Of a stretch of DNA of 64,000 bases, positions 31,136-54,235 are shown one piece after another. Position 1 is the stretch's first letter; each line of letters begins with the position of its first letter. The position numbers were made by a program, and so were the translations under genes. Source of the stretch: Ignavibacteria bacterium. GTDB taxonomy: Bacteria > Bacteroidota > Ignavibacteria > Kapaibacteriales > Kapaibacteriaceae. The stretch is from the NCBI GenBank assembly GCA_016191145.1, contig JACPPD010000006.1, positions 1 to 64,000 of the forward strand, in the 5' to 3' direction. Below the pieces are notes generated by a model. It was not told the DNA's origin. It saw only the letters and a program-made list of their open reading frames with translations, and searched no databases.

Positions 31136-31484
31136 TAGTTCATAGTTCATAGTTCATAGTTCATAGTTCATAGTTCATAGTTCATAGTTCATAGTTCAGG
31201 GTTCAGGGTTCAGGGTTCAGGGTTCAGGGTTCATAGTTCAGAGTTCAGGGTTCGGGGTTCAGGGTTCAGAGTTCAGAGTTCAGAGTTCAGAGTTCATAGT
31301 TCAGAGTTCAGAGTTCATAGTTCATAGTTCATAGTTCATAGTTCATAGTTCATAGTTCATAGTTCATAGTTCATAGTTCATAGTTCATAGTTCATAGTTC
31401 AGGGTTCAGGGTTCGGGGTTCAGAGTTCAGGGTTCGGGGTTCGGGGTTCGGGGTTCAGAGTTCAGGGTTCAGGGTTCATAGTTC
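31136..31484. repeat. Left heptanucleotide tandem array (GTTCATA / GTTCAGG / GTTCAGA)
   Basis: About 50 direct repeats of a 7-base unit GTTCANN, with blocks of GTTCATA, GTTCAGG, GTTCAGA and GTTCGGG. The phase is kept throughout. It is the inverse complement of the array at 31919-32121 on the other side of the S23-type gene. Confidence 0.97.
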
Positions 31485-31918: not shown

Positions 31919-32121
31919 GAACCCTGAACCCTGAACCCTGAACTATGAACCCTGAACCCTGAACTATGAACCCTGAACCCTGAACCCTGAACCCTGAACC
32001 CCGAACCCTGAACCCTGAACCCCGAACCCTGAACCCTGAACTATGAACCCTGAACCTTGAACCCTGAACCCCGAACTATGAACCCCGAACTATGAACTAT
32101 GGACCCCGAACCCTGAACCCC
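31919..32121. repeat. Right heptanucleotide tandem array (GAACCCT / GAACTAT / GAACCCC)
   Basis: About 29 direct repeats of the 7-base unit GAACNNN in the opposite orientation to the left array, so that the two could pair as long imperfect inverted repeats around the S23-type gene. Unit variants (CCT, TAT, CCC, CTT) mirror those on the left. Confidence 0.97.
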
Positions 32122-47429: not shown

Positions 47430-47520
47430 CCCGGTCAATCACCCGGTCAATCACCCGGTCATTCACCCGGTCATTCACCCGGTCAATCACCCGGTCATTC
47501 ACCGGGTGATTGACCGGGTG
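47430..47520. repeat. 12-bp tandem repeat ACCGGGTGAWTG, with orientation switch
   Basis: Six units of CCCGGTCAATCA/CCCGGTCATTCA followed by about two units in the opposite orientation (CCGGGTGATTGA), so the array can fold on itself. It fills the gap between the divergent cytochrome and pntAA genes. The same unit recurs at 52880-52927. Confidence 0.95.
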
Positions 47521-50420: not shown

Positions 50421-51608
50421 ATGCATCGAGACTCTGAAACAAAGGTCGTCCGCACACAGATGGGGCGGACGGGTGAGAAGGAACACACGTCGCCTGTATT
50501 CCTGACGTCGAGCTTTATCTTCGACGATGCCGAACACATGCGCGCATCGTTTGCCGATGAAATCGAAGGCAATATTTATACACGTTTTACAAATCCTAAC
50601 AATAGTGAATTTGTAAGAAAAATGTGTGTTCTCGAGGGAGCCGAAGCAGGTGTTGCAACATCGTCGGGCATGGCAGCGGGATTCGCATCCGTCATGGGAT
50701 TGCTCAGAAGCGGCGACCACATTGTTTCGTCGCGCGCACTGTTTGGCGGAACTCACGGTATGCTAACAAATTTTCTTCCACGCTGGGGCATCACGAGTAC
50801 ACTCGTTGATATCGCCGATGAAGATCAGTGGATTGGCGCTATTACGCCATCAACACGGATGTTGTTGGTGGAAACTCCATCGAACCCGGGCTTAGACCTT
50901 GCTGACCTGGAATTTCTCGGCGCTCTGGCGCGAGAGCGAAATCTTATTCTCAACGTCGACAACACGTTTGGCACGCCCCTTATCCAACAACCAATAATGT
51001 ACGGTGCAGACCTTGTTTGGCACTCGGCAACAAAATGGATAGATGGGCAGGGTAGGGGCTTGGGAGGCGTAGTTCTTGGTCGGGCAGATTTGATCGGCGA
51101 TATCGGCGCATTTTGCAGGAATACCGGTCCATCGATGTCGCCCATGCATTCATGGCTGTTCAGTAAAAGTTTGGAGACGCTTCCTGTGCGGATGGATAGG
51201 CATAGTGCAAATGCTTTGTTGGTTGCCGAATTTCTTGAAGGGCATCAGCAGATAGAACGCGTAAAGTATCCATGGTTACAATCGCATCCTCAGTATAAAC
51301 TGGCGCGCAAACAAATGACGTCGGGCGGAGGCGTTGTTGCATTCTGCATCAAACATGACGGAAGCAATGAGAGTGCTCTCAGACGAGCCACGAAGTTTAT
51401 TGATAGTGTTCGTATGTGTTCAATCACAGCCAACCTTGGCGATACGAGAACGATAGTTGTGCATCCCACAACGTCGACGCATTCAAAACTTACCGAAGAG
51501 GCTCGTCGGGAAGTTGGAATAACACCGAATATGATTCGCATCAGCGTTGGTTTGGAGAGTATTGCCGACATCATAGAAGATCTGGATCAGGCGCTGAACG
51601 GCGGTTAA
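50421..51608 (+). CDS. metZ: O-succinyl/acetylhomoserine sulfhydrylase
   Basis: 395 residues from the ATG at 50421; a GTG 11 codons earlier is possible, but family members start near here. PLP fold type I of the Cys/Met metabolism group: SPVFLTSSFIFDDAEHM, YTRFTNPNNSEF, SSGMAAGFASVM, VETPSNPG, VDNTFGTPL, and the PLP lysine in HSATKWIDGQGRGLGG. It converts activated homoserine plus sulfide to homocysteine. metX and hom follow on the same strand. The choice between the succinyl and acetyl substrate cannot be made from sequence by eye; the metX neighbour supplies the acylated homoserine. Confidence 0.92.
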   Translation: MHRDSETKVVRTQMGRTGEKEHTSPVFLTSSFIFDDAEHMRASFADEIEGNIYTRFTNPNNSEFVRKMCVLEGAEAGVATSSGMAAGFASVMGLLRSGDHIVSSRALFGGTHGMLTNFLPRWGITSTLVDIADEDQWIGAITPSTRMLLVETPSNPGLDLADLEFLGALARERNLILNVDNTFGTPLIQQPIMYGADLVWHSATKWIDGQGRGLGGVVLGRADLIGDIGAFCRNTGPSMSPMHSWLFSKSLETLPVRMDRHSANALLVAEFLEGHQQIERVKYPWLQSHPQYKLARKQMTSGGGVVAFCIKHDGSNESALRRATKFIDSVRMCSITANLGDTRTIVVHPTTSTHSKLTEEARREVGITPNMIRISVGLESIADIIEDLDQALNGG

Positions 51609-51661
51609 CTGTCAATACACTCGTTTGTCCACTCGCCCCCTTACTGTTTATATTTGCATCA

Positions 51662-51763
51662 ATGTTTCAATCTGTCAGCCATACTCCGATAATGTGCACC
51701 ATGCAAATGCAGGCTTTGCCCATGGCCATGCCTACAGCACGTGTACAGAGACCGGTTGACTAA
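51662..51763 (+). CDS. Methionine-rich leader peptide upstream of metX
   Basis: 33 codons with six Met. Five of these fall in residues 11-23 (MCTMQMQALPMAM), followed by a short tail and TAA. A start at 51662 or at the ATG at 51692 is possible; neither has a good Shine-Dalgarno. The frame ends 23 bases before a rho-independent terminator that precedes metX, the layout of a ribosome-mediated transcription attenuator. Starvation for methionyl-tRNA would stall the ribosome in the Met cluster and prevent termination. I did not find a convincing antiterminator hairpin by eye. Confidence 0.6.
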   Translation: MFQSVSHTPIMCTMQMQALPMAMPTARVQRPVD

Positions 51764-51786
51764 ACTCACCATAAGAGCCAATAACG

Positions 51787-51820
51787 GCGCCGTTCTCTGC
51801 AAAAGGGGACGGCGCTTTTT
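51787..51820 (+). terminator. Attenuator terminator before metX
   Basis: Stem GCGCCGTTCTC / GGGGACGGCGC (11 pairs, two of them G-T) with loop TGCAAAA and a TTTTT tail. It lies 23 bases after the Met-rich leader stop and 27 bases before the metX start. Since metX is on the same strand, the terminator must be read through for metX and probably hom expression. Confidence 0.85.
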
Positions 51821-51847
51821 GCATTTGGGCACAAGGAACCATGCATC

Positions 51848-52861
51848 GTGAATTTTTTTAGATACAAGCATCAACTCGAACTCGAATTCGGCAGCGTTCT
51901 CAGCAACGTTACTGTTGCCTATCAGGTATGGGGCGAGCTAAACAAACAGCGCAATAATGTTGTGTGGGTACTGCATGCAATTACTGGTAGCAGCGACGTT
52001 GTGCAATGGTGGCCGGAAGTTGTTGGTAATGGGAAGCTGTTCGATCCCAACAAACACTTCATCATTTGTGCGAACATGATTGGATCGTGCTACGGAAGTA
52101 CATTCGATACACCACAACCTTCCGGACGTGATAGCTCAACGGATTATGCAGCGTCTGATGTGCTGATTACAACGCGCGACGTAGTGAAAGTCTTTTCACT
52201 GCTGGCAGATGAACTTGGGATTGATACAATTCATGCAGTCATCGGTGGGTCGATGGGCGGACAGCAAGCTCTCGAATGGGCAGTACAACAGCCTGAACGC
52301 ATCCGCGCCACAATATCTATTGCCGCAAACGCAAAGCACTCGGCGTGGGGCATTGCATTCAATGCAGCGCAGCGCATGGCAATCGAGGCAGATGCAACGT
52401 TCGATTCACAACAAACCAATGGCGGCGCCGCTGGCTTGGCGGCGGCAAGAGCCATAGGCATGTTATCGTACAGAACGCCTCTTGATTACCATCATAAACG
52501 AAATGATGATGCAGAAAAGCTGGAGGGATTTGCCGCTGAATCGTATCAACGGTATCAGGGCATGAAACTCGTCAAGCGTTTTAATGCCCGATCGTACCAT
52601 AGGCTAACGCGGACTATGGACAGTCACGACGTGGGCCGCGGCCGGGGCGGTCTGGTGCGAGCCTTGAATTCGATTCGCTCACAGACAATTGTGGTTGGTA
52701 TCGACTCCGACATCCTCTTTCCGACATTCGAGCAAAAATTCATTGTACAGCATGTGCCAGGAGCACAATACGTTGAATTATCAAGCATCGTTGGCCACGA
52801 CGCCTTTCTTGCTGATCAGCGTGCTCTGGCAGAGCTTCTCCGAACTGTGCTTAATCAATGA
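51848..52861 (+). CDS. metX: Homoserine O-acyltransferase
   Basis: 337 residues from a GTG; an AAGGAA lies about nine bases upstream. Alpha/beta hydrolase of the MetX family: VTVAYQVWGELN, HAITGSSDV, ANMIGSCYGST, the nucleophile in IGGSMGGQQALEW, the catalytic Asp in GIDSDILFP and His in VGHDAFL. It transfers an acyl group from CoA to homoserine, giving the substrate for MetZ. The arginine-rich GRGRGG region is typical. An ATG at 51841 better spaced to the ribosome site encodes only six residues and overlaps this start. Confidence 0.93.
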   Translation: MNFFRYKHQLELEFGSVLSNVTVAYQVWGELNKQRNNVVWVLHAITGSSDVVQWWPEVVGNGKLFDPNKHFIICANMIGSCYGSTFDTPQPSGRDSSTDYAASDVLITTRDVVKVFSLLADELGIDTIHAVIGGSMGGQQALEWAVQQPERIRATISIAANAKHSAWGIAFNAAQRMAIEADATFDSQQTNGGAAGLAAARAIGMLSYRTPLDYHHKRNDDAEKLEGFAAESYQRYQGMKLVKRFNARSYHRLTRTMDSHDVGRGRGGLVRALNSIRSQTIVVGIDSDILFPTFEQKFIVQHVPGAQYVELSSIVGHDAFLADQRALAELLRTVLNQ

Positions 52862-52879
52862 AGCAATTGGTTCAGATTC

Positions 52880-52927
52880 ACCCGGTGAATGACCGGGTGA
52901 ATGACCGGGTGATTGACCGGGTGATTG
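52880..52927. repeat. 12-bp tandem repeat ACCGGGTGAWTG, second locus
   Basis: Four units (ACCCGGTGAATG, ACCGGGTGAATG, then two ACCGGGTGATTG) just after the metX stop. Same unit as the array at 47430-47520, about 5.4 kb away. Confidence 0.95.
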
Positions 52928-53068: not shown

Positions 53069-54235
53069 ATGCTTACTATCGGACTCTTCGGCTTCGGATG
53101 TGTTGGACAAGGTCTTTGGGACGTAATTCACAGAACACATGGATTGCGTTCGCAGATTGCGCGTATCTGCGTTAAAGACAAACACAAGTCGCGCCCCCTG
53201 CCTCGAAATGCATTTACGTTTGACCGTGACGACATTCTAAACGACGATACAATAAACGTTGTTGTAGAACTCATCGACGATGCCGAAGCTGCATTTGAAA
53301 TCGTCAGTGCGGCTATGAGAAAGGGTAAGGCAGTTGTTACTGCAAACAAGAAGATGGTGGCTACTCGGTTCCGCGAGTTGCTTGAGATCCAGCAAGAAAC
53401 GCAGCAGCCACTCCTCTACGAGGCATCTACGGGCGGCAGTATTCCAATTATTCGGAACCTGGAAGAATACTACGATAACGATCTGTTAAGCGGCGTAGAA
53501 GGAATCGTTAACGGAACCACAAATTACATTCTGTCTAAACTCTCAGCGAACATCGAAGCCAGATATCACGATGTGCTGCGTGAAGCACAGCAACTTGGCT
53601 TTGCTGAATCCGATCCGTCGCTCGATGTGGACGCATGGGACGCTGCGTACAAGACCGTTGTGATTTCGGCACACGCTTTTGGTGCAGTGATACATCCGGA
53701 TAGTGTTATACGAAGGGGAATTGCAACCATTACGCCGTTCGATGTAGCTGCTGCACGCAGCCATGGCTGCGATATCAAGCTATTGAGCAGGTCTTCGTTG
53801 CACAACAACCAACTGATTGCGTGGGCTCTTCCAACATTCGTGCCCCTCACGGATATGCTGTCGCGCGTCGTAAATGAAACAAACGCCATTCGACTGCATG
53901 GAGCCTTTTCTGACGATCAATTATTGATTGGCAAGGGGGCTGGGGCACATCCAACGGCATCGGCAGTGCTTTCCGATATCGCGGCATTGAAGTACAGCTA
54001 CCGCTATGAATACAAAAAATTGCTCTTGAATGATATTCCACAGTTTAGCACCGACATATCCACACGTGTGTATATCAGAGGCAATGACAATCAACTGAAT
54101 TCCATCGAGTTTTCGGATGTTGAAATCGACCACAAGGCCAATAACAATAGGTATCTCATAGGTGAAACATCTATTCGTGCATTAGTGGAATCCGAACCTT
54201 TCAATTCGTCGGAATGCTTCATTGCAATTGCCTGA
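53069..54235 (+). CDS. hom: Homoserine dehydrogenase
   Basis: 388 residues. The NAD(P)-binding opening TIGLFGFGCVGQGLWDVI, the VVTANKKMVA loop, EASTGGSIPIIRNL, VEGIVNGTTNYILSKL and the catalytic region FAESDPSLDVDAWDAAYK are diagnostic for homoserine dehydrogenase. A C-terminal ~70 residues after GKGAGAHPTASAVLSDI lacks a clear ACT domain. It reduces aspartate semialdehyde to homoserine, the branch point to threonine and methionine, and here follows metZ and metX. The 207 bases upstream hold the 12-bp repeat and no recognisable riboswitch. Confidence 0.95.
   Translation: MLTIGLFGFGCVGQGLWDVIHRTHGLRSQIARICVKDKHKSRPLPRNAFTFDRDDILNDDTINVVVELIDDAEAAFEIVSAAMRKGKAVVTANKKMVATRFRELLEIQQETQQPLLYEASTGGSIPIIRNLEEYYDNDLLSGVEGIVNGTTNYILSKLSANIEARYHDVLREAQQLGFAESDPSLDVDAWDAAYKTVVISAHAFGAVIHPDSVIRRGIATITPFDVAAARSHGCDIKLLSRSSLHNNQLIAWALPTFVPLTDMLSRVVNETNAIRLHGAFSDDQLLIGKGAGAHPTASAVLSDIAALKYSYRYEYKKLLLNDIPQFSTDISTRVYIRGNDNQLNSIEFSDVEIDHKANNNRYLIGETSIRALVESEPFNSSECFIAIA

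Follow-up and report, generated by a model that had tools for sequence, protein, structure and literature searches.

A methionine-rich leader ORF and covarying terminator ahead of metX in Kapaibacteria: a predicted ribosome-mediated transcription attenuator

Genomic context of metX

The window considered here is a 64,000-nt stretch (positions 1 to 64,000 of contig JACPPD010000006.1, assembly GCA_016191145.1) from an Ignavibacteria bacterium of the family Kapaibacteriaceae, and the leader, its promoter and terminator, metX, metZ and hom lie on its forward strand. It harbors a metX gene (51848–52861, 337 aa) of the homoserine O-acetyltransferase family, which is the putative controlled gene, with NCBIfam TIGR01392 as best match (338.9 bits, short of its curated cut-off of 500), alongside a Pfam Abhydrolase_1 match. 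A metZ-like sulfhydrylase gene (50421–51608; best NCBIfam match O-succinylhomoserine sulfhydrylase, Pfam Cys_Met_Meta_PP) is located upstream of the leader, and not downstream of the switch. The homoserine dehydrogenase gene hom (53069–54235; Pfam Homoserine_dh, NCBIfam NF004976) is possibly co-transcribed with metX: the initial annotation, made without database searches, had suggested that hom might share the control of metX, and this remains plausible since the family genomes examined have hom next to metX, on its downstream side, although in the window a 207-bp gap separates the two.

Several repeats were also observed in the window. The same 12-bp tandem repeat (CCCGGTCATTCA) occurs at 47430–47519 and 52875–52927, in opposite orientations, flanking the transhydrogenase-metZ-metX block, the second copy lying in the metX-hom gap. 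Long heptanucleotide tandem arrays are found at 31137–31484 and 31919–32120 (AGTTCAG x50, GAACCCT x29).

The leader ORF, its promoter and its terminator

Between metZ and metX lies a leader peptide ORF of 33 codons (51662–51763, from ATG 51662 to TAA 51761–51763; MFQSVSHTPIMCTMQMQALPMAMPTARVQRPVD), and a Met-rich ORF is kept at the same place in relatives. Its internal Met codons start at 51692, 51701, 51707, 51722 and 51728, that is five within codons 11–23, and together with one Cys codon they form the control region (51692–51730), as read from the sequence. Among the 1296 ORFs of 15–60 aa in the whole window, this is the only one that reaches at least five internal Met per 13 codons.

The ORF is followed, 22 nt past its stop codon, by a terminator hairpin of 13 bp including G-U pairs (51786–51798 with 51804–51816, −23.6 kcal/mol by RNAfold), closed by a TTTTT run at 51816–51820 that ends about 28 nt before the GTG start of metX (51848). 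The 5' arm (51786–51798, supported by folding and by covariation) is referred to as region 3, and the 3' arm together with the T-run (51804–51820, supported by folding) as region 4. A scan of the 64-kb window returned six terminator-like sites. The initial annotation had described a 33-codon frame with five Met in thirteen codons and a hairpin with a T-run before metX, all of which held, positions included; its 11-bp stem is only partly confirmed, the fold giving 13 bp, and the distance from frame to stem, which it put at 23 bases, is 22 nt.

Upstream of the ORF, a putative Bacteroidota-type promoter can be recognized, with a −33 element (TTTG, 51624–51627) placed 21 nt before a −7 element (TATATTTG, fitting TAnnTTTG, 51649–51656), itself 5 nt before the leader ATG; this promoter type, and the usual spacing used to place the transcription start, are general background on Bacteroidota. 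All nine leaders of the window's family for which upstream sequence was examined have a TAnnTT(T/C)G box 5–10 nt ahead of an in-frame ATG, and in other families the gap from box to ATG is mostly longer (16–34 nt). Given the 5–10-nt gap and the usual promoter spacing, transcription would start at or beside the ATG, and the mRNA of the leader ORF in the window's family is likely to be leaderless or nearly so, although the transcription start is inferred from promoter spacing only.

Alternative pairing between leader and terminator

The initial annotation had left the antiterminator unidentified. A candidate is now found at the end of the leader ORF, where the strand CAGAGACCGG (51746–51755) is complementary to CCGTTCTCTG (51790–51799) in the 5' arm of the terminator, so that this part of region 3 doubles as the antiterminator target. 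The strand belongs to region 2 (51746–51760), which is supported by duplex energy, by the minimum free energy (MFE) structure and by equivalents in most of 60 leaders of the class. The region 2:3 duplex of the window amounts to −15.2 kcal/mol, and is the MFE fold of 51737–51803, the RNA present before the 3' arm of the terminator exists; taken alone, this duplex has a p value of about 0.07–0.08. The other part of region 2, GGTTGAC (51754–51760), pairs with region 1 (GTCAGCC, 51674–51680) in the untranslated leader, according to both MFE and centroid structures. When the full untranslated leader is folded, the 1:2 pairing and the terminator both form (MFE; window only).

A ribosome is generally taken to cover about 15 nt on either side. 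A stall at any of the five Met codons would therefore leave 51746–51755 free, while a ribosome at the stop codon (51761) would cover it; region 2 is located at about −16 to −5 relative to the leader stop. Three criteria of an attenuator, a short leader ORF with cognate codons, a terminator before the first gene and an antiterminator that a ribosome can cover, are fulfilled in the window, the third by a duplex that is weak when taken alone. The leader thus has the sequence parts, pairing potential and geometry of classical ribosome-mediated attenuation, as in the trp and his attenuators.

The same arrangement was sought in 60 non-redundant leaders of the class, by comparing the last 33 nt of each ORF plus six nt with the 5' arm of its terminator. 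Complementarity was significant (p<0.05, mononucleotide shuffles) in 41 of the 60, and in 38 when only codons were shuffled. The combined p values are 5e-42 and 1e-31, but they treat as independent leaders that are in fact related. Relative to the stop, region 2 spans about −14 to −4 and the Met codons about −57 to −27 across the set, a near-constant placement that answers in the affirmative the search for an antiterminator in relatives suggested by the initial annotation. The 2:3 duplex is poor in some leaders (L157, L212, L221, L174 and L190). A cross-table of 18 shows a tendency for stronger pairing when leader end and terminator come from one family than when they come from two.

Conservation and replacement in the order

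In the order Kapaibacteria, 28 of the 31 genomes carrying metX have a Met-rich or Met/Cys-rich leader and a covarying terminator heading the metX operon. A covariance model of the element recovered 27 of these genomes at E<=1e-7, all with metX, the 28th (G029) being reached via weaker matches; weak matches, below about 40 bits and spread over many genomes, were left uncounted, being mostly plain terminators. The window copy (51 bits) is among the weaker members of the element. These leaders come from six families of the order, with ORF-terminator spacings of about 22–42 nt, and stand at the head of the operon whatever its first gene (metX, metY-metX, OsmC-metZ-metX or a YeeE-like gene).

Within the window's own family, metX is present in 13 of 23 genomes. 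A Met-rich leader and a GC-rich terminator precede metX in G008 and G019, metY(-metX) in G009, G011, G012, G013, G014, G015, G020 and G022, and a YeeE-like gene and metX in G017, with leader peptides such as MNTTRQNSVNMSTSMHSCMMMCMYMSHMEWRG and MMSGMMCCAMSMCMCMHHRENGRSERD. The contig of G001 breaks before the place. The congeners G002–G005 have no metX match, while the window species keeps metX-hom. The same device occurs in families f3, f7, f8, f9 and f10 of the order (for example MSTTQFNIAIPAAKPVMMQMCMMMCCCMQWRENVLNQS). A SAM-I/IV riboswitch holds the place of the leader before metY-metX in G006, of the window's family, and a SAM-I riboswitch is at the place in G044; G043 has metX, with neither leader nor SAM riboswitch found near it.

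Among 18 aligned elements, 6 of the 12 pairs of the terminator helix have changed on both sides (27 cells), 94% of cells are paired, and the covariation score was reached by none of 500 shuffles. Since leader and terminator are conserved in tens of relatives, coincidence is excluded as the origin of the Met-rich ORF and terminator. A chance Met cluster is likewise rejected, the ORF being alone of its kind among the 1296 of the window and conserved in relatives. The comparison recommended by the initial annotation, namely whether Met codons and hairpin persist in the spacer of related genomes, has therefore come out in its favor, the terminator moreover covarying.

In most relatives the leader combines Met and Cys codons; that of the window has a single Cys. 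Selection on the leaders probably acts on amino acids, because 458 of 497 internal ATGs are in frame (a biased figure, as leaders were chosen for Met) and Cys codons are split between TGT (107) and TGC (99).

Leaders and SAM riboswitches in a second order

A class-wide search returned strong matches to the element in another order, where 65 distinct metY operon heads could be compared. A Met/Cys leader, or leaders, without SAM riboswitch is found in 17 of them, a leader followed in tandem by a SAM-I riboswitch in 22, and a SAM-I or SAM-I/IV riboswitch alone in 26; none has neither leader nor SAM riboswitch. The SAM-only count includes L330, whose leader contains GGAAGGAC and whose matching hairpin lacks a T-run. 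Eleven of the 17 leader-only operons have a pair of leaders, with one terminator for each.

Tandem arrangements of two Met-rich leader-terminator units, ahead of metY, were observed at L278–L284, L289, L293, L329, L351 and L235 (G029). A Met/Cys leader directly before a SAM-I riboswitch, ahead of metY, was observed at L288, L296–L299, L301–L303, L306, L307, L318, L319, L322, L324, L325, L327, L328, L331, L332, L338, L339 and L341. It is conceivable that the latter tandems represent two stacked sensors, providing two-input control.

When the same rule was applied to 59 metX loci of other Bacteroidota, no convincing leader was found, the two matches being ends of long frames; of the 11 such loci examined for it, nine have a SAM-I riboswitch. 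Also rejected as leaders were the Met-rich ORFs of L123, L134, L143 and L260, which are ends of long coding frames.

Leaders ahead of other operons

Similar leaders precede other genes, whose names result here from reading the sequences (only metX, metZ, hom and metY were scanned by profile). Met/Cys leaders are found before a sulfate-binding protein gene and a CysT/CysW/CysA-like ABC operon (L263), before cysH-cysD-cysN (L272), and before a cobA-like gene and a cysJ-like (sulfite reductase) gene, in this case without a clear terminator (L256). In f7 genomes (L222, L224–L227, L229), a Met/Cys leader and terminator precede a peroxiredoxin-DUF4395-rhodanese operon, and in L223 and L268 Met/Cys leaders are located before TonB-receptor or secreted-protein genes. 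Because most leaders mix both codons and similar leaders precede sulfate-assimilation genes, the sensed signal is likely to be the charging of Met plus Cys tRNAs.

His-rich leaders with GGGCCGTTCTC-type terminators were also found before hisG in two members of the window's family, G011 and G013 (L228, L230). These are in all likelihood classical his attenuators, and act as an internal control in which codons match the pathway: their presence in two family members indicates that the lineage uses attenuation with matching codons.

Proposed mechanism

The element of the window is very likely (a probability of about 0.9) a ribosome-mediated transcription attenuator sensing the charging of elongator tRNA-Met, and of tRNA-Cys too in most relatives. 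In the absence of expression data, the point at which transcription starts is inferred, as are the translation of the ORF, the stalling, and both termination and read-through. The proposal of the initial annotation, that metX is controlled by ribosome stalling at Met codons, is thus supported by the relatives, without experimental demonstration of the mechanism. In the predicted sequence of events, RNA polymerase would start at the promoter just before the leader ORF, with a ribosome following closely. When Met-tRNA is scarce, the ribosome would stall on the Met codons at 51692–51730, upstream of region 2 and over or past region 1; region 2 would then pair with region 3, blocking the terminator, and metX (probably with hom) would be transcribed. 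In the absence of translation, the 1:2 and 3:4 pairings would form together and transcription would stop.

One objection is specific to methionine. Met starvation should also lower the initiator tRNA, resulting in blocked leader translation and favoring termination, and this counts against a Met attenuator. Leaderless initiation, a requirement for only few initiations, or a partner SAM riboswitch could conceivably bear on this puzzle.

Alternative explanations

The alternative that survives best, itself very unlikely, is that ribosome arrest comes from the nascent leader peptide as it senses a ligand, be it SAM, methionine or copper held by Met/Cys/His residues, and not from codon starvation, with the same RNA logic downstream. 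Runs of Met, Cys and His, for instance MCMCMCMH, could be able to bind copper(I), some of the leaders stand before genes for TonB receptors and peroxiredoxins, and plant CGS1 illustrates that genes of the Met pathway can use nascent-peptide arrest. Against this, the leader peptides share Met/Cys enrichment without a conserved motif at a fixed distance from the stall site, the targets are mainly sulfur amino-acid genes, and the His leaders of the same lineage precede his genes.

The three other alternatives are all but excluded. The hairpin could merely be the metZ terminator, the Met-rich ORF being due to chance or encoding an unrelated small protein: located 178 nt past the metZ stop codon, the hairpin could indeed end metZ transcripts. 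However, the leader-terminator pair of relatives precedes metX, metY, OsmC or YeeE genes without metZ upstream, the Met-rich ORF is unique in the window, the terminator covaries, and regions 2 and 3 are complementary. A SAM- or methionine-binding riboswitch or a T-box could instead fill the leader, as SAM riboswitches hold this position in other Bacteroidota and in some class members; but no SAM riboswitch (RF00162, RF01725) or T-box match was found in the window at the Rfam gathering threshold, 51580–51880 has no Rfam family match even at E<=5, barring two spurious low-score matches, and 22 operons have SAM riboswitch and leader as two distinct, adjacent elements. Finally, the leader could act via translation coupling or via termination by Rho, a mode put forward for the polycysteine leaders of mycobacteria (Cys-rich leaders without intrinsic terminators; PMC1262725); this is countered here by a conserved strong intrinsic terminator with its matching antiterminator.

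Relation to known systems

The mechanism proposed here resembles what is known for the trp, his, leu, thr, ilv and phe attenuators of E. coli, Salmonella and others, with a short ORF of cognate codons, an antiterminator at or after the end of the ORF, an intrinsic terminator before the structural genes, and alternative 1:2, 2:3 and 3:4 pairing. The classical systems respond to His, Trp, Leu, Thr, Phe, Ile or Val (see PMC1183508). In contrast, the leader considered here would sense Met (with Cys), which is also the first residue of every protein, its ORF is probably leaderless or nearly so, and it belongs to a class of Bacteroidota.

Another point of comparison is given by the attenuators of mycobacterial cys genes, which are built on leaderless polycysteine sORFs (Canestrari et al. 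2020, as cited in PMC9031893; predicted in PMC1262725). They share with the present element a short ORF that carries sulfur amino-acid codons and precedes genes of sulfur metabolism; this ORF is leaderless in mycobacteria, and probably so here. Unlike the window element, they contain Cys runs only, have no conserved intrinsic terminator hairpin, and come from a different phylum; the window leader, with one Cys, fails the polycysteine-leader criterion (a run of Cys codons near the stop).

Elsewhere, Met genes are under S-box control (PMC1262725). SAM-I (S-box, RF00162) and SAM-I/IV (RF01725) riboswitches likewise head metY/metX operons, at the position of the leader and with an output of the same kind, but bind SAM directly without a translated ORF, and are here replaced by the Met leader or stacked behind it. 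The background given in the initial annotation, that Met genes are usually under SAM riboswitches or other non-leader controls, fits this picture, SAM riboswitches being found at the same place in relatives without leader. Met-specific T-boxes of Firmicutes also sense the charging of tRNA-Met, but there the RNA binds the tRNA directly, without leader ORF, and the window has no Rfam T-box match.

No report of a Met-sensing leader peptide was found in the open-access literature searched, which included Seliverstov 2005 (PMC1262725) and Naville 2010 (PMC2965389), both checked for methionine; a report in a subscription journal could have been missed. Ribosome-mediated attenuation is already known, and what is apparently unreported, most likely and as far as the open-access literature goes, is methionine as the sensed amino acid.

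Significance

Methionine does not usually figure among the amino acids said to be subject to leader-peptide attenuation, though other RNA devices control Met genes. It represents a hard case: how could the leader respond when Met shortage should also mean a shortage of initiator fMet-tRNA, silencing the leader itself? A working Met attenuator would make this question testable.

In a bolder, inferred reading that we consider likely, a class-wide family of attenuators sensing Met and Cys charging would control a sulfur regulon (metX, metYX, sulfate uptake, cysHDN and sulfite reductase), often as tandem leaders or stacked before a SAM-I riboswitch, a combination that would read SAM as well as tRNA charging, and would replace the SAM riboswitch in the window's lineage. 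The same operon offers a natural series, with a lone SAM riboswitch, a leader joined to a SAM riboswitch, a pair of leaders, or a single leader, which suggests how one RNA sensor can stack on, and then replace, another. The leaders also offer a regulon-level signature of sulfur metabolism for a group that is known largely through metagenomes.
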